Below, one piece after another: positions 2,060-27,797 of a stretch of 40,222 bases of DNA. The notes beneath the pieces are model-generated. The model searched no databases. It saw only the letters and a program-made list of their open reading frames with translations, and was not told the origin of the DNA. Made by a program: the position numbers and the translations under genes. Source of the stretch: an uncultured Truepera sp. (GTDB taxonomy: Bacteria > Deinococcota > Deinococci > Deinococcales > Trueperaceae); the NCBI GenBank assembly GCA_902806425.1, contig CADCWP010000046.1, positions 1-40,222 of the forward strand, given 5' to 3'. The first letter of the stretch is position 1. The number at the start of each line of letters is the position of its first letter.

Positions 2060-3337
2060 TCAGCGGCCCAGCACGCGGGTTCCCTCGCGCTCGAGGCGCT
2101 CCGCCGCTTCGTCGACCGTGATGCGGTTCGCGAACAGCTCCTGGAAAATGGGCTGCGCGACCCGGCTCGAGAACTCCTCGAAGTTGGGAACGCGTTGCCA
2201 GTTCGCCATCGTGAGGTATTTTGCAGACTCAGTAGCGACGTTCCAACCCGCCTCCTGGGTCTGAAACTCGGGGCGCTCGAACGAGGTGGTGCGGGTGGGG
2301 AAGAGCCAGTCGCCCTGCGCGAGCGTCGCCATGTTTTGGCTGTTCAGGAAGAACTCTACGAACTGCGCGGCGGCCTCCTGGTTGGGTGAAGCCGCGGGAA
2401 TGCTCAGCGTCTGCGTCGACGACCCCTGATTCTGCGTTTCGGCCTTAAGCGGCGGCAACACGCCCCAGTTGAAGTCCTGGGGTCCGCTCTCGACAATCTG
2501 CTGGCGCGCCCACACCCCGATGCCCGGCAACATGGCGTAGCGGCCCTCGAAAAATCCCGGGAAGAGTTCCGGCCCGGAGAGGCCGACGCCGTCTTGGGCG
2601 ATGCTCGGATTCTCGTACAGCATGTCCGTCATCAGGTGGAGAAACGCTTTTTCGGCGTCCCCGACCCGGACGACCCACCTACCGTCTTCTTCGTAAAAAT
2701 ACTGACCGCCGAAGCCGATGCTCAGGTTCAGCACGAAGTTGACGGGTGAACTCAGCCCGACCGCGGAGCCCCACTGGTCGATCTTCCCGTCTCCGTCGGT
2801 GTCTTTGGTGAGCTGCAAGGAGGCGTCGCGGTACTCTTCCCAGGTCCAGGGGTCGTCGACAGTGGGCGGCTCTATGCCCTCTTCCTCGAGCAGGTCTCGG
2901 TTATACAAAACGATGCGAGACTCCCACAAAAAGGGCACGCCCCAGAGCTCGCCGTTCTCGCCTTCGACGGTAGCCCAGGCACCCTCGACCACGTCGTTTG
3001 CAAGGTCGCCTGAGATCAGCGGCGCGAGGTCGGTGAGGTAGCCGCGCGCCCCAAAATCTTTGATCTGGGTGGACTCGTAGTGGAACACATCAGGCACGGC
3101 TTGCGTCTCGAACGAGGTGATGAGGTAGTCGTTGATCGAACCCCAATCGACCTGCTGATACTCGACTTGGATGTCCGGGTTGGCCTCGTTCCACGCCGCC
3201 ACGATCACTTTGACCGAGGCGATAGCCTGCTCCTGCCAGGCGAGGCTGACAAACCTCAGTTGGGTAGGTTCCTGAGCGAACGCGGAGGCCGAGCTGATGA
3301 TCAGGCCTGCTAAAACGGTGCGGAAAGTTGCTCTCAT
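2060..3337 (-). CDS. Extracellular solute-binding protein (family 1) of a sugar-type ABC transporter
   Basis: Signal peptide MRATFRTVLAGLIISSASAFAQ; SBP fold motifs (WNEANPDIQVEYQQVDWG, DVFHYES, GVPFLWESRIVLYNRDLLEEEGIE); adjacent permeases. Confidence 0.92.
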   Translation of the reverse strand: MRATFRTVLAGLIISSASAFAQEPTQLRFVSLAWQEQAIASVKVIVAAWNEANPDIQVEYQQVDWGSINDYLITSFETQAVPDVFHYESTQIKDFGARGYLTDLAPLISGDLANDVVEGAWATVEGENGELWGVPFLWESRIVLYNRDLLEEEGIEPPTVDDPWTWEEYRDASLQLTKDTDGDGKIDQWGSAVGLSSPVNFVLNLSIGFGGQYFYEEDGRWVVRVGDAEKAFLHLMTDMLYENPSIAQDGVGLSGPELFPGFFEGRYAMLPGIGVWARQQIVESGPQDFNWGVLPPLKAETQNQGSSTQTLSIPAASPNQEAAAQFVEFFLNSQNMATLAQGDWLFPTRTTSFERPEFQTQEAGWNVATESAKYLTMANWQRVPNFEEFSSRVAQPIFQELFANRITVDEAAERLEREGTRVLGR

Positions 3338-3395
3338 GGGTTGGCCCTCCTAGGCGACATTTTGGGTGATTTTCGGCGGTCGGGTCGGCGCTACG

Positions 3396-4244
3396 TCATT
3401 GCTTGACACCCCCTGATAAAAGGCCCGAAACCAGGCCCCTTTGAATAAAGCCGAACAGGATAAGGGTGGGGATGGTAGCGATCACGCTGCCCGCCGCGAG
3501 CGGACCCCAACGCGCCAGCCCCTCGATGCCCCGAAAGCGGGCGAGATTGATCTGAATCGTCTGCAACTCGGGCGATTTAAGGAGCACGAGCGCGAAGAAA
3601 AATTCGTTCCAAGCATTTATAAAGGCGTATAACCCGGTGGCGACGAGACCGGGCAGAATCAGTGGAATCAAAATCTGAGTGATGATCCGCAGGTGGTTCG
3701 CGCCGTCGATGGCCGCCGCGAGTTCGATCTCTACGGGGATGTTTTGAACGTAGCCGCGGAGCATCCAGATCACGAAGGGCAAGCTCCACACCACATAGAC
3801 GAGCACGAGCCCGAGATGGGTATTGCCTAAAGAGAGGCGGTTGAGAATCAGGAATAGCGGGATGATGATCAAAATCAGCGGGAATGCTTGGGAGACGAGA
3901 ATCCAGCCGATGACGGGCTGGTTGATGCCCTTCGGCCTGCGCGCGAGCACGTAGGCCGCGGGCGTAGCGATAAGGAGCGTGAGCAGCGCCGAGGCGACGC
4001 TGACCTTGAGCGTGTTGAGCGCCGACCCCACGATGCGCTCCTCCCTCACGGCGGTGAGGTAGTTTTCAAACGTCACCTGCTGCGGCAACAGGCTTCCGCC
4101 CCGCATCATGATCTCGCTGCTCGACTTAAGCGAGGTAAAGATCAGCCATAAAAAGGGGAACGCCAAAAAGAACACGAAGGCGTATAAAAGGACCGTCATA
4201 AACAGTCTGGGGACAACCTTACGCTCTCCAACCACCCTACGCAC
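3396..4244 (-). CDS. Carbohydrate ABC transporter permease (MalG-like)
   Basis: Hydrophobic; EAA-loop motif EIELAAAIDGANHLRIITQILIPLILPGL; C-terminal QRGLVSGLLSGGVKQ. Confidence 0.92.
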   Translation of the reverse strand: MRRVVGERKVVPRLFMTVLLYAFVFFLAFPFLWLIFTSLKSSSEIMMRGGSLLPQQVTFENYLTAVREERIVGSALNTLKVSVASALLTLLIATPAAYVLARRPKGINQPVIGWILVSQAFPLILIIIPLFLILNRLSLGNTHLGLVLVYVVWSLPFVIWMLRGYVQNIPVEIELAAAIDGANHLRIITQILIPLILPGLVATGLYAFINAWNEFFFALVLLKSPELQTIQINLARFRGIEGLARWGPLAAGSVIATIPTLILFGFIQRGLVSGLLSGGVKQ

Positions 4245-7009: not shown

Positions 7010-7759
7010 GCCGTTGCCGAGCGGACGACCGCCGTCTACTGGGATGATGCAACCCGTTGAAAAGCTCAGCGCGGCGGCGACGGCGTAGACCGCTGCGGCT
7101 ACGTCGTCGGCAGTGGCGAGGCGTCCCAGCGGGGTGTTCGCCGCCTGCGCCTGCGCCCATGCGGGCTCGAGCCGCTGTGAATAAGCTCCCTGTACGAGTC
7201 CGGGAGCGACCGACATCACCCGTATAGCGGGCGCGAGCGCCCGTGCCAGGGATTTGGTCATCGCGTCGAGCGCAGCCTTCGACGCGCAGTAGGCCACGTT
7301 CGACCCCTCTCCTGTGGTCCCGGCGACCGACGAGATGTTGACGACGACGCCCGCGCCGCTCGCGCGCAGAAGGGGCTCGAAGGCGCGCACCGCCGAGAAA
7401 GCGCCGCGCCAGTTGACGCGGAAAATCTCGTCGATAAGCCCATCGTCAAGTGTATGGAGGTCGTCGTGGGCGACGTAGCGGGTAAAGCCCGCGTTGTTGA
7501 CCAACACGTCCAAGCGACCATAGGCATCCCCGACCTCCAGGGCGAGGCGACCTAGCGAAGGGGTGTCCGTGACGTCGGCCTGCCCCAGCCAGTGTCCGTC
7601 ACCGGGCAACGCCGCGAGCAGTGCTCTCGCCTCATCCGCGCTGCGGCGGTACGTTACGACGACGTGGTACCCCTCAGCGGCTAGGCGGCGGCAGATGGCC
7701 GAGCCGATCTCTCCCGCGGCTCCGGTGACGAGGGCGACGCGGCCCGCTGGTTCGGTCAC
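7007..7759 (-). CDS. SDR family oxidoreductase
   Basis: VALVTGAAGEIGSAI, NNAGFTRY, SSVAGTTGEGSNVAYCASKAALDAMTKSLA, C-terminal VDGGRPLGNG. Confidence 0.93.
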   Translation of the reverse strand: MTEPAGRVALVTGAAGEIGSAICRRLAAEGYHVVVTYRRSADEARALLAALPGDGHWLGQADVTDTPSLGRLALEVGDAYGRLDVLVNNAGFTRYVAHDDLHTLDDGLIDEIFRVNWRGAFSAVRAFEPLLRASGAGVVVNISSVAGTTGEGSNVAYCASKAALDAMTKSLARALAPAIRVMSVAPGLVQGAYSQRLEPAWAQAQAANTPLGRLATADDVAAAVYAVAAALSFSTGCIIPVDGGRPLGNG

Positions 7760-7762
7760 TGC

Positions 7763-9055
7763 CTACTTGGCGACCGGCGTGCGGTCCCCGTAGCGGCGCA
7801 CCCGCAGCGCGGCCTGTTCGCGGTGGGCGGCGAAGCCCTCTAAGTCGCACACCTTGACGCAGTTTTCACCGATCACGACGCTCGCCTCGGGGGTGCAGCG
7901 CTGGTAAGTCACGGTTTTAAGAAACTTCCCGGCCCACAGCCCCCCGGTATAGCGCGCGGCGCGGTTTGTCGGCAGGATGTGGTTCGTGCCGATGGTCTTG
8001 TCGCCGTAAGCCACGTTCGTTTCCGGCCCCAAAAAGAGCGAGCCATAGTTGGTCAAGTGCTCGAGAAAGTAATCGGGGTCTTCGGTCAGGATTTCGACGT
8101 GCTCGGAGGCGATGCGGTCTGTTTCGGTGACGAGTTCCTCACGCGAGTCGACCAGCAAGACTTGACCGCAGTCGCGCCACGCTTGACCGGCGACGTCGGC
8201 GGTGGCGAGCACGCTGAGTTGCCGTTCGATCTCAGCCTCCAGGCTGTTCGCCAGCCGTTCGCTCGAGGTCAGCAAGACAGCTACCGAGGTCGGCCCGTGC
8301 TCGGCTTGTCCCAGGAGGTCGGTCGCCACCATTTCTACGTCGGCGGTGTCGTCGGCGACGACCAAAATCTCGGTGGGGCCGGCGAGCAGGTCGATGCCCA
8401 CGGTACCGAACAGCTGCCGTTTGGCCTCGGCGACGTAGGCGTTTCCGGGGCCGACCAGAAAGTCGACCGGCTCTAAATCCTCGGTCCCGTAGGCCATCGC
8501 CGCAAGCGCCTGAACGCCACCCAAGACAAGAATTTCGTCGGCCCCCGCGAGCGCCATCGTCGCGACCGTGGCCGGGTGCGGCTGGCCGTTCCTAGGCGGG
8601 GTGCAGGCGACGACCCGGCGCACGCCCGCCGCTTTCGCGGTAGCGACGCTCATAAAGGGCGAAATGACCATCGGGTAGCGGCCCCCCGGCGCGTAACAGC
8701 CGACCGAGTCGATGGGGATGTGGCGGTGCCCCAAGGTCACACCGGGCAGGGTTTCGATCTCGACGTCGTGCATACTCGAGCGCTGCGCCTCGGCGAAACG
8801 GGTGATCTGCTCGAGCGAAAACTGGAGCGCGCTCAGCTCGTCCGGGGCGAGCGAGGCGACCGCCGCGTCGATCTCCTCTTGGCTCAAGCGAAAGCTCTCG
8901 GGGTTGTAGCGGTCGAACGTTTCCGAGTACCGCCTTACCGCCGCGTCGCCCTCACGCCGCACGTCTGTAAGGATCGACTTGACGGTCTCCTCGACCTGCG
9001 CGGTGAGGGTCTCCAAAATCTCGACTTCGGTACCGGACTTGATGGTTTTCAGCAT
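7763..9055 (-). CDS. HisD-family (histidinol dehydrogenase-like) NAD-dependent dehydrogenase in a catabolic context
   Basis: SVGCYAPGGRYPMVISPFMSVATAKAAGV, GPGNAYVAEAKRQLFGTVGIDLLAGPTE, SEHVEI, GTNHILPT. Start moved from 9073 to ATG at 9055 preceded by GAAGGAG. Confidence 0.88.
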   Translation of the reverse strand: MLKTIKSGTEVEILETLTAQVEETVKSILTDVRREGDAAVRRYSETFDRYNPESFRLSQEEIDAAVASLAPDELSALQFSLEQITRFAEAQRSSMHDVEIETLPGVTLGHRHIPIDSVGCYAPGGRYPMVISPFMSVATAKAAGVRRVVACTPPRNGQPHPATVATMALAGADEILVLGGVQALAAMAYGTEDLEPVDFLVGPGNAYVAEAKRQLFGTVGIDLLAGPTEILVVADDTADVEMVATDLLGQAEHGPTSVAVLLTSSERLANSLEAEIERQLSVLATADVAGQAWRDCGQVLLVDSREELVTETDRIASEHVEILTEDPDYFLEHLTNYGSLFLGPETNVAYGDKTIGTNHILPTNRAARYTGGLWAGKFLKTVTYQRCTPEASVVIGENCVKVCDLEGFAAHREQAALRVRRYGDRTPVAK

Positions 9056-12799: not shown

Positions 12800-14119
12800 A
12801 TGAAACGGTTTTGGTCGCTTCTTCTCGTCTTGGCGCTGTCTATCGCAGGCGCGCAAACCCCCACCGCCGCCGATTACAACCTACAAGAAGGCAAACCCTA
12901 TGACGGCACTGAACTCAATTTTTTAATCTGCTGCACGGCGGTCGCGCAGTTTGCCGCGCTGATTGAGCGCACGCAGGAATTCACCGAACTTACCGGCATC
13001 ACCGTCAACTGGTCGAACACGCCGTACGAATCGTACAAAGACGAAATCTTGGTCGAAGCCTCCGCAGGGACCGGCAGTTACGACCTCGTGGCCTGGGTCG
13101 ACGCTTGGGGGCCGCAGCTCGAGCCCTTCCTCCTCCCCATCGACGACCGCGCCGCCGCCGACGGCGTCGATCTGAGCGACTACCCCGAGGTCTACTTGGA
13201 CGCCGCGCGGCTCGGCACCGACACGCTCTACGGCCTGCCCTTGCGGGGTCACGCTTTTATGCTCTGGTACCGCCAAGACTTATTGGAGGAAGCCGGGCTC
13301 GAGGTGCCGACCACTTGGCAAGAGGTCGCGGCAGCGGCCCAGACGATCCGAGAACAAACCGACATGGAGGGCGTGTCGCTCTACTACAACGTCGGTACGG
13401 GCCAGAATCTGTTTCCCTGGTTGTCGATGCTGTGGGGCGCGGGCGGCGACGTTTTCGACGAGAACAACCGGCCTATTTTTAACAACGAGACGGGCCTCGA
13501 AGTAACCGAGTTCTACGCGAACTTTATCCGCGAAGGGCTGACCGCGCCCGACGCTGTGACCAAGGGCGAACAAGAAGGCTGGCAGGCGGTCGCCCAGGGG
13601 CGCGCGGCGATGTTTCCCGGCTGGTCGTGGATCTACGAAAGTCTGGCAAATCCGGAGTTCTCCGAGCCGGAGGTGATCGACAACCTGGGATTTGTCGCCG
13701 CGCCGGGTTGGGAGGGTGGTGAGCGCACCTCGTACGGCTATATCTGGCCGGTCGGGATTTTTAGCGGCAGCCGCAACCAAGACGCTGCCTGGGAATACCT
13801 CAAGTTTTTAACGAACGACCAGGTAAACCTCGAGCTGGTCCTCGACAAGAGCGTTCCCGAACTCTCGACGGTGGTGGCGACGCGCTACTCGGCGCTGCGG
13901 TCGCCCGAGGTCAACGAAACGACCGGCGGTTTGCAGGAGGCGATGGCGGACTCTTTGGAACAGGCCCGTACGGAACCGCTCGTACCGGAGTGGCTCGAGG
14001 TCCAGTCGGTTTTAGAGGTCGCCATCAACGAGATCGCCAACGGGGCCGACGTAAAGGGCACGCTCGATACTGCCGCCGCCGACGTCGAAGAGATCATGTC
14101 GCGAGCGGGGTACTACTAA
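12800..14119 (+). CDS. Extracellular solute-binding protein of a sugar-type ABC transporter
   Basis: Signal peptide MKRFWSLLLVLALSIAGAQ; WYRQDLLEEAGLEVPTTWQEV; AAWEYLKFLTND; followed by two permeases. RBS-like AGGAGG upstream. Confidence 0.93.
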   Translation: MKRFWSLLLVLALSIAGAQTPTAADYNLQEGKPYDGTELNFLICCTAVAQFAALIERTQEFTELTGITVNWSNTPYESYKDEILVEASAGTGSYDLVAWVDAWGPQLEPFLLPIDDRAAADGVDLSDYPEVYLDAARLGTDTLYGLPLRGHAFMLWYRQDLLEEAGLEVPTTWQEVAAAAQTIREQTDMEGVSLYYNVGTGQNLFPWLSMLWGAGGDVFDENNRPIFNNETGLEVTEFYANFIREGLTAPDAVTKGEQEGWQAVAQGRAAMFPGWSWIYESLANPEFSEPEVIDNLGFVAAPGWEGGERTSYGYIWPVGIFSGSRNQDAAWEYLKFLTNDQVNLELVLDKSVPELSTVVATRYSALRSPEVNETTGGLQEAMADSLEQARTEPLVPEWLEVQSVLEVAINEIANGADVKGTLDTAAADVEEIMSRAGYY

Positions 14120-14129
14120 GGCACATTGA

Positions 14130-14159
14130 GTCGGGGACGTCTCAACGGGCGTCCCCGAC
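14130..14159. promoter_or_regulatory. Intercistronic stem-loop (10-bp perfect stem, 10-nt loop) without T-tract
   Basis: GTCGGGGACG-TCTCAACGGG-CGTCCCCGAC, 11 nt after the SBP stop codon. Confidence 0.75.
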
Positions 14160-14264
14160 CGGCTATACCCTGCGCGGGGGTCCCCCAGGTAAACCCTTAT
14201 AACCCCGCCGAGCCCTGGACTGTAGCCGTGTACGGTCGGGTCCCCCTGTACAAGTTGCTGACGC

Positions 14265-15278
14265 GTGGTGGCCTTAGCGCCACCGGGAGAGGAGACGCTT
14301 ATCCATAGCCGCCGCACCCTTTTCTGGCTTTTAACGCCCGCCGTCGCCCTTCTCCTGCTGACGACGACCTACCCGCTCGTCTACGCGCTCGCCAATTCGT
14401 TTCGCTACTGGGTTTTGAGCCGCCCCGGACAGGAGCGCTGGGTCGGATTTGAAAACTACACCCGCGCGTTTGGCGACAGCGACTTTCTCAACAGCCTGCT
14501 CGTATCAGTCAATTACACAGCTTTGGCCGTCGTTTTCGCGGTGTCGCTTGGGCTCGGCATCGCGCTGCTGCTACAAAAAGCGAGCCGCCTACACACCTTC
14601 GTCAAGGTTCTGCTGATCTTCCCGTTCGCGGTCTCGCCCGCGCTCAAGGGGTTTTCGTTTCGGTTTATGCTCGACAGCCATTCCGGCGTGTTCGACGCGA
14701 TTGCCGATGTGATCGTGCGTTCGGTCGGTTGGGTGCTGACCTTGGGCGGGCTCGTTCACTACCCGGCGTTTCAGATCGGGGGGCTTGAAGCCGGACGCCT
14801 GACGCTGCTCCCGGCGCTGAAGTTTCCCGTCACCGCGGACACCATCTGGCTCGCCGACGGTTTTTGGGCGCTTTTTTGGATGGCGATGAGTGAGGTGTGG
14901 GGGTGGGCGCCCCTGTTCGCGCTGATGTTTTTGGGGGCGCTCGGCTCGATTGACACCGACATCTTTAACGCCGCGCGAATCGACGGGGCGACCTCGGGGC
15001 GCATCTTCTGGCACATCACGCTGCCTCTCTTGCGCCCGGTCATCCTTATCGTCACACTCCTTAAGATCATCTCGTCCCTCCGGATGTTCGACCAAGTGGT
15101 GACAATGACCGGAGGCGGGCCGGGGCGCGCGACCGAGACGATCAATCACCTTATCTATCAGGTCGGTTTCGGGCGGGGCCTCGACATGGGGTACGCCTCG
15201 GCGATGGCCTACATCCTGGTTGTCGCGTTATCGCTATTCGCATTTCTTTACGTCCGCGTGCTTTTCCGGAGGGCGTAG
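14265..15278 (+). CDS. Sugar ABC transporter permease (MalF-like)
   Basis: Multiple TM segments; EAA-like DIFNAARIDGATSGRIFWHITLPLLRPVI. Exact start uncertain. Confidence 0.9.
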   Translation: MVALAPPGEETLIHSRRTLFWLLTPAVALLLLTTTYPLVYALANSFRYWVLSRPGQERWVGFENYTRAFGDSDFLNSLLVSVNYTALAVVFAVSLGLGIALLLQKASRLHTFVKVLLIFPFAVSPALKGFSFRFMLDSHSGVFDAIADVIVRSVGWVLTLGGLVHYPAFQIGGLEAGRLTLLPALKFPVTADTIWLADGFWALFWMAMSEVWGWAPLFALMFLGALGSIDTDIFNAARIDGATSGRIFWHITLPLLRPVILIVTLLKIISSLRMFDQVVTMTGGGPGRATETINHLIYQVGFGRGLDMGYASAMAYILVVALSLFAFLYVRVLFRRA

Positions 15279-15285
15279 GAGGATT

Positions 15286-16209
15286 ATGACCGTCACCCGA
15301 GCCCGCACCCCCGCTATGACCGGACGCCCGCGCCCACGCCTCCGGTGGGGCAACCTCATGGACACCTTCGCTTCGCTTCTCGTTGTCGTGTTCGTGCTGC
15401 TGCCCATCTTCTGGCTTACCCTGACCGCCTTCAAGGGGCAGCGCGACGCCTTTTCACTCCGGCTCTTTTTCGAGCCTACGTTGGCGAACTTTCGGACGAT
15501 CTTTTCCGACACCTACCGTGCGGGCGACATGCTGGTCGACAGTCTGGTTGTCTCGAGCATCACCATCCTCATCACCCTGCCGGTCGCTATCGTCGCGGCC
15601 TACGCGTTTTCGCGGTTCCGGTTCCGCGGCAGCGACCTGCTCTTGGTCTGGGTCTTAGCAACGCAGTTTTTACCGCCGGTTGTGGTCTTGCTGCCCTTTT
15701 ACAACCTTTTCCGGCGACCGTTCGGTTGGCTTCCCGAGAGCTGGCTTGACGTGTCCTTTTTCGATAATCTTTCCCGCTTCACCCTGCTCGACACCTACGC
15801 GGCGCTCATCATCCTGAACTTGTCGTTTACGCTGCCCTACGCGATCTGGCTCCTAAAAGGTTTTGTCGACGCCCTGCCGGGGGAACTCGAGGAGGCCGCC
15901 TACGTCGACGGCAGCACCACCTTCGGCGTCCTGCGCCACATCACCTTCCCGCTCATCTTGCCGGGCATCATCGTATCGGCGGCGTTTGCGTTTATCTCTA
16001 CTTGGAACGAGTTCATCTTCGCGCTCGTCGTCGGCGGGCAGCGGGTGACGACCGTGCAAGTCGGTCTCAACCTGATGAACAGCGCCACCGGCGTGATCTG
16101 GGGGCAGATGTCGGCGGTGGGCGTGCTCATCATGGTGCCGCTGATCGCCCTGTCGTTCTTGATCCGCCGTCACTTCGTCAGCGGCATCACCTCGGGAGCG
16201 GTAAAATAA
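15286..16209 (+). CDS. Carbohydrate ABC transporter permease (MalG-like)
   Basis: ELEEAAYVDGSTTFGVLRHITFPLILPGI; C-terminal RRHFVSGITSGAVK. Start placed at ATG 15286 after AGGAGG rather than at 15220. Confidence 0.9.
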   Translation: MTVTRARTPAMTGRPRPRLRWGNLMDTFASLLVVVFVLLPIFWLTLTAFKGQRDAFSLRLFFEPTLANFRTIFSDTYRAGDMLVDSLVVSSITILITLPVAIVAAYAFSRFRFRGSDLLLVWVLATQFLPPVVVLLPFYNLFRRPFGWLPESWLDVSFFDNLSRFTLLDTYAALIILNLSFTLPYAIWLLKGFVDALPGELEEAAYVDGSTTFGVLRHITFPLILPGIIVSAAFAFISTWNEFIFALVVGGQRVTTVQVGLNLMNSATGVIWGQMSAVGVLIMVPLIALSFLIRRHFVSGITSGAVK

Positions 16210-16210
16210 C

Positions 16211-17311
16211 ATGTCTGAACAAAAACACCCCTCAAAAGCTAAGGCGACCGCTCAGCCGGTTCTCGACGTGCCTTACCGTGACGTTCACGAGCTGCTCTAC
16301 CCGGAAGGTGAGCAGCGGCAGCCCATGCGCGGCTTCCGGGACGATTACGTCGATATCGTGCACTACATCGTCCGCTGCACGCACGACATCTGGGAGGGCG
16401 GCGACGTCGGGCTGATTTACAGCCACTATTCGCATAACGCAAGGGTCCACACGCCGGAAGGGATGATCTACGGGCGCGACAAGGTCGCCGAGAACACCCT
16501 GCAAAACCGGGCCGCCTTCCCGAACCTGCGCGCGTTCGCCGATGACGTGATCTGGTCGGGCGACGAAGAGACGGGTTTTTACTCGTCGCACCGGGTTTAC
16601 GATATCGCGCAGCACACGGGCCACTCGGTCTACGGCCCCCCTACCGGGCGCTGGATGCGCCACTACACGATAGCCGACTGCTTGGTGCTGGAAAACCGCA
16701 TCGTCGAAGAGTGGTTGGTGTCCGACAACCTCGCCATCATGCAGGGCTTGGGCCTGGACCCCCACGCTTACGCAAGGCGTTTGGCCGAGCGCGACGCCGA
16801 CGCGGGCTTCGCTCCCCGCGACAGCTTCGGCGACGTGGACCACCACCGCGGCCAAGAGCCCCCTCCGCTGGAGCCCGACGAGCTGGGGACGGTCGAACCT
16901 GAAACGCTGATGCGCCGCAGCCTGCACGAGATTTGGAACTGGCGGATGTTGGGGCAGTTAGAACACTATTACGCCCCAAATTTGGTCTGTTACACGACCG
17001 GCAACCGTATCCTCTATGGCCGCGGCGACTACCGCCACAACCTGCTGGCTTTACTCGCCGCCCTACCCGACGCCCTACTTTTGGTCGATCACGCGGCTTC
17101 GGTGCCGAACGGCGAAACCGGCTACCGGGTCGCCGTGCGCTGGACGCTGCTCGGCACGCATACCGGGCCGGGGTGGTACGGCGCGCCGACGGGCAAACGG
17201 GTGCGGCTTATGGGGGTCACGCACAGTGAAATCCGGGACAACCGGGTCGTCAGAGAGTGGCTTATGTACGACGAAATCGCTCTGCTTAAACAGCTCGAGT
17301 GGCCCTCTTGA
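16211..17311 (+). CDS. Two-domain SnoaL/NTF2-like protein, copy 1
   Basis: Two SnoaL-like modules (VHYIVRCTHDIWEGGDVGLIYSHYSHNARVHT... and LHEIWNWRMLGQLEHYYAPNLVCYTTGNRILYGRGDY...). Strongly similar to the 18434 ORF. Confidence 0.82.
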   Translation: MSEQKHPSKAKATAQPVLDVPYRDVHELLYPEGEQRQPMRGFRDDYVDIVHYIVRCTHDIWEGGDVGLIYSHYSHNARVHTPEGMIYGRDKVAENTLQNRAAFPNLRAFADDVIWSGDEETGFYSSHRVYDIAQHTGHSVYGPPTGRWMRHYTIADCLVLENRIVEEWLVSDNLAIMQGLGLDPHAYARRLAERDADAGFAPRDSFGDVDHHRGQEPPPLEPDELGTVEPETLMRRSLHEIWNWRMLGQLEHYYAPNLVCYTTGNRILYGRGDYRHNLLALLAALPDALLLVDHAASVPNGETGYRVAVRWTLLGTHTGPGWYGAPTGKRVRLMGVTHSEIRDNRVVREWLMYDEIALLKQLEWPS

Positions 17312-17361
17312 GGTGCCGCGACCCCTACTCCTACCGCGTAGTGCTGAGGCTCAGCTAACGG

Positions 17362-18429
17362 ATGGACAGCTCCCCGGACGCTCTTACTTCCGTCCGTGAC
17401 CCCTCGGGTGAGGCTACCGAGCACGTCGTTCAGGGTGTGCGCCGCGTGTGGGAGGAGAAGGCTGTCGGGCTCATCTATGACCACTATCAGCATAATGTCC
17501 ACATTCATACCGCCTTTGGGGACTGTTACGGTCGGGATGACCTGGTGACGGACGCCGTGGCGCAACTCGCCGCCTTTCCCGACCTCCGGCTCTATGGAGA
17601 GGACGTGATTTGGGATGGGGCGCGCGGGTATGTCTCGCACCACGCCACCAGAGTAGCGCACAATACGGGCTACAGCGCCTTCGGTAGGCCGACCGGCAAG
17701 CGGGTCCGCTACCGCACCGTCACCGATTACCTCGTGCGTGGTGGGCGTATCGCCGAGACTTGGGTCGTACACGATGGGCTGGCGGTCGTTCGGCAACTCG
17801 GCCTCGGCGTCGCTGAGGCGGTCGGGGCGGTCACCGGGGTTCACCCCGCCCCACTGCCCCCGCATGGTGTCGGGGAGCCCCAGCGCCTGCGTGGTCAAAA
17901 CCCACCCGACAGCCCGCCCCGGCCCCTACTGAGTGACGGCGCTCCGGGAGACGGTATTAAAGCCTTTGTGGCCTGGGTTTGGCACGAGCTTTGGAACCGT
18001 CGCCGTTTCGACCGCGTCGCCGAGCTGTACGCCCCCGACTACCGCTTCTTCGGCCCCTCCGGAACCCGCCTGGGTACCCGCGACGGTTTTACGGCCTACG
18101 CGCTCGCTCTACTCGCGGCCTTTCCCGACGCGACCGTGCAGCTCGAGCGTCTGTCTTGCGTGGGCAGCGGTGCCGACTGGCGCGTCGCCGTACGCTGGCG
18201 GCTTTTCGGCACGCATGACGGCCCCAGCCGTTACGGTGCGCCCACCGGTCGCCGGGTCAACGTCCTCGGCATCACCCATCACCGCCTGCACGGTGGAGTG
18301 TTCCTTGAGGAATGGACTGTGTTCGACGAGCTGGCGCTGCTGGCACAGCTTTACGCCCCGGACGGCTCCGGTGCATCCCCGCCGCCCTCCGCAGAGCAGC
18401 CTGGCGGCTCAGAGACAGGAGTGAACTAA
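17362..18429 (+). CDS. Two-domain SnoaL/NTF2-like protein, divergent copy 2
   Basis: VQGVRRVWEEKAVGLIYDHYQHNVHIHTAFGDCYGRD and WHELWNRRRFDRVAELYAPDYRFFGPSGTRLGTRDG align with both modules of the neighbours. Confidence 0.78.
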   Translation: MDSSPDALTSVRDPSGEATEHVVQGVRRVWEEKAVGLIYDHYQHNVHIHTAFGDCYGRDDLVTDAVAQLAAFPDLRLYGEDVIWDGARGYVSHHATRVAHNTGYSAFGRPTGKRVRYRTVTDYLVRGGRIAETWVVHDGLAVVRQLGLGVAEAVGAVTGVHPAPLPPHGVGEPQRLRGQNPPDSPPRPLLSDGAPGDGIKAFVAWVWHELWNRRRFDRVAELYAPDYRFFGPSGTRLGTRDGFTAYALALLAAFPDATVQLERLSCVGSGADWRVAVRWRLFGTHDGPSRYGAPTGRRVNVLGITHHRLHGGVFLEEWTVFDELALLAQLYAPDGSGASPPPSAEQPGGSETGVN

Positions 18430-18433
18430 GCTT

Positions 18434-19561
18434 ATGTCCGACAGCGTAGACAACCGTATAGACGAGCAGGCCGCGAAACCCGATGAGGTGACCGGACGCA
18501 CGCTCGCACCCTTGGACGTCCCCTACCACGACATCGGCGAACTCCTTGAACCTGAAGGCGGCAGAAGGCAACCCTTGCGTGGTTTTCAAGACGAGTACGT
18601 CGACATCGTCCACTACATCGTCAAATGCACCCACGACATCTGGGAGGGTGGGGACGTCGGCCTCATCTATACCCACTACACCCATAACGCCCGCGTCCAC
18701 ACCTCCGGCGTGATGCTTTACGGGCGCGACCAGATGGTGGAAAATACCCTTCAGCGTCAAGCTGGGTTTCCCAACGCTCGAGCCTACGCCGACGACGTGA
18801 TCTGGTCGGGTGATGAGACGACGGGCTTTCACTCATCGCATCGCGTCTTAAATATCGCCCGCAACACCGGGTATTCGATCTATGGTCCACCCACGGGACG
18901 GTGGATCAGGCGCTACGGGGTCGCGCACTGCCTCGTTTTGGAGAACAAGATCGTTGAGGAGTGGCTCGTTCAAGACACCTTGGCTATCGTTCGCGGGTTG
19001 GGTCTAGACCCTCACATCTATGCCAAACGTTTAGCACAGCAAGACCACGACGCAGGTTTCATCCCTAGCGACAGCTTTGGCGACGTTGACCACCATCGGG
19101 GTCAGGAACCGCCGCCACCTGAACCGAGTGAGAGAGGGGAGTCCGACCCGGAGCGTATGATGCGCCGCAGTATCCACGAGATTTGGAACCGACGACTGCT
19201 CGGTCAGATCGAGCGTTACTACGCCCCCAACGTGGTCTGTTACACCACCGGCAACCGCGTGCTCTACGGTCGTGGTGACTACCGCTATAACGTGCTGGCC
19301 CTGCTCGCCGCCCTACCCGACGCACTGATTCAGGTCGATCACATCTGTTCGCTGCCTAACGGCGACAACAGTTACCGCGTAGCGACGCGCTGGACGCTGC
19401 TTGGTACCCACACTGGCCCCGGCTGGTATGGGCCACCGAGCGGCAAGCGGGTACGGTTGCTGGGCGTGACGCACAGCGAGATCGAGAACGACCGCATCGT
19501 TAGAGAATGGCTCGTGTACGACGAGATCGCTCTGTTAAGACAGGTATACGGCCCGTCTTGA
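18434..19561 (+). CDS. Two-domain SnoaL/NTF2-like protein, copy 3
   Basis: Long identical blocks shared with the 16211 ORF (e.g. DSFGDVDHHRGQEPPP, THTGPGWYG, GLGLDPH). Confidence 0.82.
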   Translation: MSDSVDNRIDEQAAKPDEVTGRTLAPLDVPYHDIGELLEPEGGRRQPLRGFQDEYVDIVHYIVKCTHDIWEGGDVGLIYTHYTHNARVHTSGVMLYGRDQMVENTLQRQAGFPNARAYADDVIWSGDETTGFHSSHRVLNIARNTGYSIYGPPTGRWIRRYGVAHCLVLENKIVEEWLVQDTLAIVRGLGLDPHIYAKRLAQQDHDAGFIPSDSFGDVDHHRGQEPPPPEPSERGESDPERMMRRSIHEIWNRRLLGQIERYYAPNVVCYTTGNRVLYGRGDYRYNVLALLAALPDALIQVDHICSLPNGDNSYRVATRWTLLGTHTGPGWYGPPSGKRVRLLGVTHSEIENDRIVREWLVYDEIALLRQVYGPS

Positions 19562-23734: not shown

Positions 23735-24227
23735 GGTAGTGCTAATGAGGTAATGATCTGTTGTAATGATGGCTAAAGAGCCAGATGGCAGCGATATGGT
23801 TCTCTAACTTTTGGGGAACGACAAGGTCTTGCGAACAAGTCGGCCTACCCGCTGCTCCACACAGGCATACTTCTGGTTCACATACCCCTGGAGCCAAGTT
23901 TCGGATACGTCGAGCAGCCAGGCGATGCCTGCCAGTGACAGCTTCTCCAGCAGGAGCTTGTCCACCCGAGCTTTTGTCTCCTCGCTGATGCGCTTGTTCG
24001 TCGCTCCATAGACGAACCGCCGCCCGCAGCTCTTGCACCGATACCGCTGTTTACCGTTGCGTACAGGCCCGGGAGCGGCCAAGCCCGTGAGGTGCTGCTT
24101 TAAGGCAAAGACAGGTGCCGTTTTGTCCAAGACATGGATGTGTCCGTTCTTAGTGACCTGCTTACCTCTACAGGCAACGCATCTCAGCGTTCATGAAGCT
24201 TAAACCATTACTACAGGGGCACTACCC
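23735..24227 (-). mobile_element. Internally deleted IS1-family element with both terminal inverted repeats
   Basis: Ends GGTAGTGC (23735, and inverted at 24220-24227). InsA-like ORF (RCVACRGK..., RYRCKSCGRRFVYG) plus InsB C-terminal tail NHIAAIWLFSHHYNRSLPH*; no InsB catalytic core. Confidence 0.8.
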
Positions 24228-24531: not shown

Positions 24532-26700
24532 TTACTGCACCGTGACCTGCGCCGCCTCCGGCGCGAACAAGATCCAGTGCTTAAACGGCGTCAGATCAAC
24601 CTCAAGCCCCGTCGGCGCGAAAAACGAAAAGCCACCCTCGGGTGTCCAGGTTCCGAGGACGGCCTTGCCGCGCAGGTAGAGCGTCGCCGCCCCGCCGCTG
24701 TAGGGCAGGTAGAGCCGCCCCTCCGGGTCGCCCGAGTAGGGGAACGCGACGACGCGGGCTACGACTACGGCGTCGGCGGCGACCGCTGTGCCCGCCGCAT
24801 CGACCGCGTCCGCGCCGCTACGGAGCCAGCGGTATTGGTCGAGGTCTGAAAGGTAACGAAAGCCGCTCGTGTACTCCGCCGAGTAACCTACCGTGAGCGA
24901 CGAAACGTCCTCCGCGTCGGCAGGGGGCGCGTAGAGTGTGCCGCTGACCTGACTTGGAATACGGCCGACCGCGTCGCGCAGTGTGGTCCCCGTGGAGAAG
25001 GTGCTGTGCGGCGCGCTGCGGTCCTGCGCCTGGGCGAAGAGGGTGCTCTGCTCGAGGGCGTCTACGGTCGCCAGACCCTCGGTAGCGATGCGGTTGACCG
25101 TGCTGGGCGCGCCGCCGACGTGAACCAGGGTGCCGTTCATTTGGAGAACAGCCTCCAAAAAATAGTCCCGGGCACTGCGAATCGGCCCGACCTGAGCAGG
25201 GTCGTCTTTTGTATAGACGCTCATCAGGCGGGTCATCCCTCCCTCTACGGGCATCTCAAAGACGCCCGCCGCCTCCACTAACCCCCCCTGCGGATAGGCG
25301 GCGTCGGCGTTGTCGATAAGGACGGCCAGGGGATTCTCGAGGGTCGCCTCAAAGCTCTGAACTTCTGCGACGCCCGCCGCCGCGCCGCCAAGGCCGTCCG
25401 ACGCCGCGCCCTGCCCGGTGGGGCTCGCCCGGGGGCCAGCTTCAACCTGCGCGTTGCGCGGGCCACTACCGGCGTCGGCAGCCGCTTGCGGCGCTACCGT
25501 CGCCGACGCGCGCGGCGTGACGATGGAGACTGCCTCGCTGAGGGCCACACCGGGCGTCACGGTAAGCGGTCGCGCTTGGGTTACGACCACGCCGACCTCG
25601 GGCTGTGGCACGTCCTCGCCGGGCGAAGCGGAACCGCTCACCACAGGCTGCGGAACCCTTTGCGCTTCGCGCACGACTACCCCAACCTGCGGCTCGGGAA
25701 CGTCCGCCGAGGCAACCGCCGCCGTGACGCCCGGCTGCGGCACGGCCTGAGTTTGGGCGACGACCGCGCCGACCTGCGGCTCCGGTACCGCACTTGCAAC
25801 CTCCGCCTGCACTTCCGGTTGCGGGACAGGCTGCGCCTGAGAGACGGCCGCGTCAACCTGCGGCTCGGGTACCACGCGGGAGACGACCTCAGTGCTCACG
25901 TCCGGCCTCGGGATAGCGTCCCCTTCGGCAACCACGGTCTGAACCCGGGGCAGCGCGACAGGTCGGGTGACGATGCTTGCGGTGACCTCGGGCGTCGGCA
26001 GCGCCTGGGCTTCGGTGACTGCGACCTCCGGGATGACGCTCACGCGGCGAGGCGGCGTCACGTCGGCCTCCGGGTTGGGCGTCGGCAGCGCGAGGGCGTC
26101 ATCCAAGGGTTGCGGCGCGACCACGGCGGCTTGGATTTCCGGCAGCGTGCTGGCCGGGGCCTGGACGGGTAGGTCGGGAAAGGTGGCAGCTGTCTGCGTG
26201 GGTAGCCGGGCCTGCGGCGGGTTCTCGCTCGGCGGCAACGGTTCGCTCTGGGCTGTTTCGGGGCGGACGGGTGCTTCGGGCGCGTCTTCTAGACCTGTAG
26301 CCTCGGGCGCGGCGAGGACCTCCTCAGCTGCGTTTCCGGCGGCTTGGGCGTCGGCCCCCGCTGGGGCCGGTTCGTTTGTGGCCGCGGCGACGCGCGCTTG
26401 TGCGCCGCTCTCTGGCGGGGCAAGCTCGAGAACGATCAGCTCCTCCGGCTCCCTTTCGGGCGCGGTGCTAGGTACGGTGGACAACCACACGACGCTGAGA
26501 AGCGCCGCCGCGTGCAGCAGGAGCGACAGCAGGAGCGCCCGCCGCCGGTCCCGGTCGCCCCAAAAGGTCGCCAGCGGGCGGCGTTCACGGCGGACCCAGA
26601 CTGCTCTAGCCGCGCCGCGTAGCGATGCACGCGACACCCGCCGTGACCCCTCACGTCTCGGACGGAGGGTGCGGAAGAAGACGCGGCGTTTGCGGGCCAA
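24532..26700 (-). CDS. TonB-like N-terminal TM plus repetitive linker plus DUF3048-like C-terminal domain
   Basis: ALLLSLLLHAAALLSVVWLSTVP TM; ~30-aa periodic VPQPEVxAxVxxA linker; C-terminal NPLAVLIDNADAAYPQGGLVEAAGVFEMPVEGGMTRLMSVY...VGPIRSARDYFLE as in DUF3048/YerB. Confidence 0.8.
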   Translation of the reverse strand: MARKRRVFFRTLRPRREGSRRVSRASLRGAARAVWVRRERRPLATFWGDRDRRRALLLSLLLHAAALLSVVWLSTVPSTAPEREPEELIVLELAPPESGAQARVAAATNEPAPAGADAQAAGNAAEEVLAAPEATGLEDAPEAPVRPETAQSEPLPPSENPPQARLPTQTAATFPDLPVQAPASTLPEIQAAVVAPQPLDDALALPTPNPEADVTPPRRVSVIPEVAVTEAQALPTPEVTASIVTRPVALPRVQTVVAEGDAIPRPDVSTEVVSRVVPEPQVDAAVSQAQPVPQPEVQAEVASAVPEPQVGAVVAQTQAVPQPGVTAAVASADVPEPQVGVVVREAQRVPQPVVSGSASPGEDVPQPEVGVVVTQARPLTVTPGVALSEAVSIVTPRASATVAPQAAADAGSGPRNAQVEAGPRASPTGQGAASDGLGGAAAGVAEVQSFEATLENPLAVLIDNADAAYPQGGLVEAAGVFEMPVEGGMTRLMSVYTKDDPAQVGPIRSARDYFLEAVLQMNGTLVHVGGAPSTVNRIATEGLATVDALEQSTLFAQAQDRSAPHSTFSTGTTLRDAVGRIPSQVSGTLYAPPADAEDVSSLTVGYSAEYTSGFRYLSDLDQYRWLRSGADAVDAAGTAVAADAVVVARVVAFPYSGDPEGRLYLPYSGGAATLYLRGKAVLGTWTPEGGFSFFAPTGLEVDLTPFKHWILFAPEAAQVTVQ

Positions 26701-27114
26701 CTAGTTCCCTCCGGTAGCGATGGCGACGCGCTCGGCTCCAGCCCGTTTAAGAAGGTCCATCACGCGCACCGGCAGGCCGTACTCGATGCTCTGGTCGGCG
26801 CGCATGACCACAGTTTTCGTCTCGCGCCCGCTAAGCAGCGGGCGGAGCGCGGCGACAAGTGACGCCTCCGTAACCTCGGCACCGGCCAAGTAGATGCGGC
26901 CCTCACCCGTAATCGTCACCGTCGGCAGGTCTGTAGCTTGAGCTTCGGTGCTCTGCGCCTGCGGCAGGTCGATGGGGAGACCCGACTCGAGCGAGATAAA
27001 GGTCGTCGAGACCATGAAAAAGATCACCAGGGTGAAAATCACATCAACCATCGGCGCGAGGTCTAAAAGCGGCCCCGTCTGCATCGGGGTGCGGCTGCGC
27101 CGGGTGCGCCTCAT
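26701..27114 (-). CDS. exbD: ExbD/TolR family biopolymer transport protein
   Basis: LDLAPMVDVIFTLVIFFMVSTTFISLESGLPIDLPQA. Confidence 0.93.
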   Translation of the reverse strand: MRRTRRSRTPMQTGPLLDLAPMVDVIFTLVIFFMVSTTFISLESGLPIDLPQAQSTEAQATDLPTVTITGEGRIYLAGAEVTEASLVAALRPLLSGRETKTVVMRADQSIEYGLPVRVMDLLKRAGAERVAIATGGN

Positions 27115-27797
27115 ACGCCCGACCCGAAGGTTTCGGCTTGGGTCGCTTCGGTTCGGGCCGCGCGGGGCTCCTCACGGCTTTTAAGTGATACCGCCTGGGC
27201 AACGTTGCCCATCAGTTCCTCGCGGCGGCGCTCGAGTTCGACCAGGATGTTCTCGACCCGGCTCGCTAGGTACGAGTGCCCAAGAATGGTTGGTATCGCT
27301 ACGAAAAGTCCGGCGGCGGTGTTGACGAGCGCCTGCCCGATGCCTCCGGCGAGGACCGACGGGTTCCCGGCACCCTGCTGCGAAATCTCGGCAAACGCCG
27401 TAATCATCCCCGTGACCGTTCCCAAAAGCCCCAGCAGCGTAGCGACCTGTGCAATGGTAGCGAGCGGGCGGAGACCCCGGGTGAGGCTCTGCTCTTCACT
27501 CAAGTACGCCTCTTGAAACGCCGCCTCGACCGCCGGACGGCCGTAGGGAATCCGCGCCAGGGCCGCCTTTAATACACGCGCGACCGGCCCGCCGTGATGG
27601 TCGCAGGCGATCATCGCCATCTCGAGGTTGCGGCCCAGCACGGCGGCGTTGACCCGGGCCATCAGCCGGTCCGAGTCGGGCCGCTCACGAGCGAGTTGGA
27701 ACAGGCGGGTAAAAAAGAGGTAGAGGGCGTACAGCGACAGCAGCACGATCATCACCAAGACCGGGCCACCACTTAAAAGCAGGTCCATAATCCTCAC
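27111..27797 (-). CDS. exbB: MotA/TolQ/ExbB proton channel family protein
   Basis: LRPLATIAQVATLLGLLGTVTGMITAFAEIS...GIGQALVNTAAGLFVAIPTILGH. Confidence 0.93.
   Translation of the reverse strand: MRIMDLLLSGGPVLVMIVLLSLYALYLFFTRLFQLARERPDSDRLMARVNAAVLGRNLEMAMIACDHHGGPVARVLKAALARIPYGRPAVEAAFQEAYLSEEQSLTRGLRPLATIAQVATLLGLLGTVTGMITAFAEISQQGAGNPSVLAGGIGQALVNTAAGLFVAIPTILGHSYLASRVENILVELERRREELMGNVAQAVSLKSREEPRAARTEATQAETFGSGV

Follow-up and report, generated by a model that had tools for sequence, protein, structure and literature searches.

An ExbB-ExbD operon encoding a DUF3048-tipped, TonB-like transducer in Trueperaceae: a candidate powered cell-envelope machine

The exbB-exbD-DUF3048 operon and its products

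The window analysed here, a 40,222-nucleotide stretch from an uncultured Truepera sp. (Trueperaceae, Deinococcota), carries three minus-strand open reading frames between 27797 and 24532, exbB, exbD and a 722-aa gene, which make up one tight operon. The first of these, exbB (27111..27797, minus strand), encodes a 228-aa member of the MotA/TolQ/ExbB proton-channel family (PF01618 MotA_ExbB, E=7.7e-30; TolQ in the PDB, E=2e-13), for which a GTG at 27797 is a possible start codon and the ATG at 27788 the more likely one. Its end overlaps, through ATGA, the start of exbD (26701..27114, minus strand; 137 aa), whose product matches PF02472 (E=6.9e-30) and E. coli ExbD (6tyi_Y, E=5.8e-13) and retains the transmembrane aspartate, with PMVDV in the window protein aligning to PFIDV of E. 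coli ExbD; homologues of both components of an ExbB/ExbD motor are therefore present. The third gene, which encodes the DUF3048-tipped TonB-like transducer (24532..26700, minus strand), begins with a TTG that abuts the exbD stop codon and has GGAGGG a few nucleotides upstream, and it looks intact, its C-terminal end aligning with the ends of its relatives. Between 24200 and 28300 no promoter-like site was found, and the terminator-like sites there lay on the opposite strand only and were no more numerous than expected by chance.

The transducer carries a transmembrane anchor, ALLLSLLLHAAALLSVVWLSTV (aa 55-76; 26473..26538, minus strand), which contains S59-x3-H63, a motif of the SHLS type found in TonB and TolA. 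In those proteins the SHLS motif docks the anchor on the motor, and S-x3-H forms its core (PMC12204202). The S-x3-H arrangement is kept in 31/31 Trueperaceae, in agreement with the original prediction of a TonB-type N-terminal anchor on the third gene. The corresponding residues read S-x3-N in 10/10 Atribacterota, and S-x3-H is not kept in the transducers of a related Deinococcota family (f4), where the His is missing; because of these changes, motor docking in f4 and in Atribacterota may differ from that in Trueperaceae.

Beyond the anchor, 22-33 residues past H63 and with spacing as in TonB, lies a D-box-like strand, PEELIVLELAPP (aa 85-96; 26413..26448, minus strand). The D-box of TonB is a proline-flanked strand of alternating hydrophobic residues just past the anchor, which is captured by the ExbD dimer (PMC10907165); the strand in the window protein resembles it. 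An alternating, D-box-like pattern was found 21-27 residues past the anchor in 47/47 transducers versus 6% of linker windows of equal length, a comparison in which the pattern was set after inspecting the sequences and the 47 transducers are relatives rather than independent cases; it is supportive of motor coupling, short of proof. On the motor side, L132 of E. coli ExbD contacts the D-box, and the L132Q substitution leads to loss of D-box binding (PMC10907165); the window ExbD has Ile at this position, which keeps its hydrophobic character.

The anchor and D-box-like strand are kept while the remaining linker (~aa 97-446; 25363..26412, minus strand) diverges. The original prediction had described a periodic linker of about 350 residues. 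The length (~350 aa) stands and the composition is rich in Pro, Ala and Val (15% Pro, 20% Ala, 15% Val), but the regular VPQPEV-type repeat, with a spacing of 13-15 aa, is confined to ~aa 263-378 (25567..25914, minus strand).

The C-terminal tip consists of a DUF3048 N-terminal domain (aa 454-578; 24967..25341, minus strand; Pfam E=5.7e-34) and DUF3048_C (aa 603-710; 24571..24894, minus strand; PF17479, E=6.5e-07), the latter also present in the AlphaFold model. The DUF3048 region matches PDB 2psb, Bacillus subtilis YerB, by sequence (E=3.1e-17), and an AlphaFold model based on a 50-sequence alignment (mean pLDDT 96.8) found YerB 2psb as its sole PDB match below E=0.001 (E=1e-23, TM-score 0.84), so that both DUF3048 domains and the YerB fold are present in the transducer. 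When the model was searched for an enzyme or binding relative, the PDB returned only YerB and a set of viral models returned nothing. Nine polar residues are invariant across 50 sequences from several phyla (N19, E37, E41, R46, R63, S64, R66, Y68 and H82, domain numbering), all of them in the N-terminal subdomain, and, going by this conservation, they may form a site of ligand binding or catalysis. In the window genome no DUF3048 was found other than that of the transducer. Elsewhere the domain usually occurs in lipoproteins or TM-anchored proteins with no exbBD nearby; since it works there without a motor, its own function need not depend on force. The open-access literature on DUF3048 gives no function for it and yielded no link to ExbBD, while C. 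perfringens yerB appears in a list of putative sporulation genes.

Several other features of the motor and the window were observed. The third transmembrane segment of ExbB bears a motif (TM3; GI-x-E-AL in TolQ) whose Glu is replaced by Gln in 29/29 Trueperaceae read; this Glu is retained in most motors of f4, other Deinococcota and Atribacterota, with Val in some Atribacterota. Just downstream of the operon, two short overlapping frames (23742-24130, minus strand) resemble, by eye, IS1-type InsA/InsB ends; the 108-aa frame has no Pfam match. Further away, three genes in a row with two SnoaL-like domains apiece (16211-19561, plus strand) sit behind an ABC transporter set (12800-16209).

Distribution in Deinococcota and Atribacterota

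A domain search across Deinococcota, suggested alongside the original prediction, recovered further anchor-linker-DUF3048 transducers, with DUF3048 in 47/112 genomes (36/39 Trueperaceae and 11/14 of family f4). In all 37 loci with sufficient upstream sequence on the contig (31 from Trueperaceae, 6 from f4), exbD lies directly before the DUF3048 gene. This synteny rules out chance or an annotation artefact as the source of the arrangement and, with the overlapping or abutting frames described above, confirms the operon that had been predicted. ExbD is single-copy per Deinococcota genome, and because exbD is also directly upstream of the DUF3048 gene, the sole ExbBD motor found in Trueperaceae-type genomes would appear to serve the DUF3048 protein. 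TonB_C was detected in 1/112 and Plug in 2/112 Deinococcota genomes, all fragmented drafts, and a profile search found the Plug domain of TonB-dependent receptors to be absent from the window genome. Omp85 is present in 37/39 Trueperaceae, so an outer membrane is expected in this family; Pal-type OmpA (PF00691) is absent from the window genome and present in 6/39 Trueperaceae.

The genes upstream of the operon in Trueperaceae are chiefly YmdB-like and PEP carboxylase genes, seen at between roughly one half and two thirds of compared loci; these were judged to be housekeeping genes and set aside as a functional clue, and no gene for an outer-membrane protein recurs next to the operon at these loci. 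One Trueperaceae genome (G081) has, in addition to its ExbBD-linked copy, a second DUF3048 in a gene that fuses it to a trypsin-like protease domain (L065:3089-5038, minus strand). This was considered as a counter-example and rejected, as it is a different protein, protease plus DUF3048, with no exbBD.

In other Deinococcota families, Thermus-like ones among them, the gene after exbD shares the RR-anchored S/T-x3-H helix, has a linker of low complexity, and ends in a different domain of ~110 aa (VDARGLNPPL...VWPD...), with a secreted-protein gene next. This alternative tip, read in L071, L075, L080 and L089, plus L074 with an assembly gap, matched nothing significantly in Pfam and nothing in the PDB, and no DUF3048 was found in the genomes that bear it.

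Beyond Deinococcota, the best ExbBD-carrying DUF3048 matches among the best 80 loci of a genome scan were in Atribacterota, a scope that makes further phyla with the exbD-DUF3048 arrangement possible. DUF3048 occurs in 46/50 Atribacterota genomes and has exbD directly before it in 39/50; for the long-form DUF3048 genes ExbD is directly upstream in 37/43, and in two more genomes it precedes shorter frames. A large TPR gene (~1,200 aa) lies just upstream of exbB in 15/16 Atribacterota loci read, L102, L132, L180 and L184 among them, the TPR assignment having been made by Pfam in L180 and L184. The TPR protein of L180 opens with an export-signal-like stretch. In L184 (G133:C14), an ExbB-ExbD pair with the same opening residues occurs twice (2283-3465 and 7104-8157), flanking the TPR gene; the two copies may reflect either a recent duplication or a repeat in the assembly. 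Several Atribacterota genomes have an additional short DUF3048 gene (~315 aa), and the one that was read, in L173, has no exbBD alongside.

Atribacterota also bear on the predicted substitution of DUF3048/YerB for TonB_C, since the DUF3048 protein stands in for TonB in Trueperaceae, where TonB_C is all but absent, but in at least two Atribacterota genomes sits beside a true TonB system. In L171, a separate receptor-TonB-ExbB-ExbD operon (TonB_C, E=9e-21; Plug, E=8e-24) is present in a genome with the DUF3048 system, and the same gene order is found in L170. The DUF3048 transducer is therefore a separate entity from TonB, and the two can coexist in one genome.

A DUF3048 tree recovered a single clade (100/100) for the domains from Deinococcota and placed those from Atribacterota with Bacillota, and a forced clade of Deinococcota plus Atribacterota was rejected (AU p=0.012, in a test chosen after the tree was seen). 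This rejection suggests that DUF3048 may have been recruited to an ExbBD motor twice. A motor tree with one clade of all DUF3048-linked motors gave AU p=0.048, which is not decisive. The record labels of L099 (Polyangiaceae), L119 (Lutibacter), L125 (Calditrichales) and L162 (Planctomycetota) disagree with their placement in the DUF3048 tree, and these genomes are possibly misbinned or mislabelled.

Proposed coupling to the motor and rival explanations

Evidence from the sequences points to a motor-coupled transducer of the Ton/Tol type that has DUF3048 as its output, a reading to which we assign a probability of roughly 0.7. In this proposal, whose motor docking and force are drawn from homology, motifs and synteny, ExbB and ExbD would form a proton-driven inner-membrane stator, the transducer TM helix would dock on ExbB via S59/H63, and the periplasmic ExbD dimer would grip the D-box-like strand at aa 85-96. 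The Pro-rich linker would then span the periplasm, so that a pull or cyclic loading derived from the proton-motive force would be delivered to DUF3048, which would bind a wall or outer-membrane component. That the load is the cell wall or outer membrane, in a role more like that of Tol than nutrient uptake, is a tentative suggestion held at less than even odds; it is favoured because DUF3048 is anchored outside the membrane where no exbBD adjoins, and because receptors are absent here.

The other explanations differ mainly in what the motor would do for DUF3048. The protein could be an equivalent of TonB for uptake or export, in which DUF3048 engages an outer-membrane transporter unseen by the Plug model and the motor opens that transporter; the anchor, motor and overall layout are the same as in TonB, and these Deinococcota genomes have no other ExbBD system. 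However, the plug of TonB-dependent receptors is missing from nearly all genomes, no conserved outer-membrane protein gene adjoins the operon, Atribacterota have the DUF3048 system next to a real TonB-receptor operon, and such a role would be an unlikely use for the DUF3048 lipoproteins and TM-anchored proteins that have no exbBD nearby, which together make this explanation unlikely. Alternatively, the nine invariant polar residues of the N-terminal subdomain, conserved in 50 sequences from several phyla, could belong to an enzyme whose substrate is peptidoglycan or a different polymer of the wall, with the motor moving or gating DUF3048 instead of pulling a tether; as the searches gave no structural relative of known activity and the invariant pattern would also fit a binding site, we regard this as quite unlikely. 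The anatomy would also fit a sensor working in the reverse direction, with wall status sensed by DUF3048 and the rod controlling the passage of protons through ExbBD, but the relatives TonB and TolA send force outward, and such a direction is very improbable.

The original prediction named, as a ground for refutation, an ordinary anchor helix in a gene not co-transcribed with exbBD. The related explanation, that this is an ordinary anchored YerB-like protein whose gene lies behind exbBD by accident, draws on the fact that DUF3048 proteins usually are plain anchored lipoproteins or TM proteins, but it is contradicted by S-x3-H in 31/31, by a D-box-like strand in 47/47 that is conserved, like the TonB-type anchor, against an otherwise diverging linker, and by synteny across two families and again in a second phylum, and is barely credible.

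Returning to the motor-coupled transducer, a broader claim would be that DUF3048 proteins are a separate class of proton-motive-force transducers that arose at least twice (in Deinococcota and in Atribacterota), that they power outer-membrane or wall coupling in diderms without Tol-Pal, and that tips have been swapped on one ancestral motor. Taken as a whole, this is a possibility that we consider less likely than not.

Significance and relation to known systems

With a DUF3048 tip on the sole ExbBD motor of Truepera-like bacteria and the same arrangement recurring in a second phylum, the DUF3048-tipped ExbBD transducer is a candidate for a new kind of powered cell-envelope machine. If this is correct, it would provide such a machine for diderms outside the lineages that bear Tol-Pal, a new output domain for the Ton/Tol transducer family, and the first functional lead for DUF3048/YerB, which is spread over Bacillota, Chloroflexota, Patescibacteria and others. 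How the envelope is energised in bacteria that lack both TonB receptors and Tol-Pal would become a directly testable question.

Compared with YerB (PDB 2psb), the tip shares a two-part fold (TM-score 0.84), whereas proteins of the YerB type are either lipoproteins or held by a plain anchor, away from exbBD. The system shares with TonB-ExbB-ExbD the two motor proteins, the S-x3-H anchor, the D-box-like strand and a Pro-rich linker, but differs in that TonB_C is absent and TonB-dependent receptors are missing from nearly all Deinococcota genomes. With TolQ-TolR-TolA-Pal it shares the motor family, and the large TPR gene by the motor in Atribacterota recalls CpoB; unlike that system, it has no TolA C-terminal domain, and Pal-type OmpA is absent in the window genome and rare in the family.

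The closest precedent, in which a TonB-like transducer likewise bears a different tip, comes from the vWA-tipped force transducers described in 2025, which have an SHLS TM helix, a motor box, a disordered or Pro-rich linker and a globular tip that is neither TonB nor TolA, and whose motor genes adjoin, often with a TPR gene as a further neighbour (Williams-Jones et al., 2025; PMC12204202). Shared with these are the anchor logic, the linker, an unrelated globular tip and adjoining motor genes, as well as the TPR neighbour in Atribacterota, while the system described here differs in its DUF3048 tip, in its occurrence in Deinococcota and Atribacterota, and in having one exbD instead of a pair.
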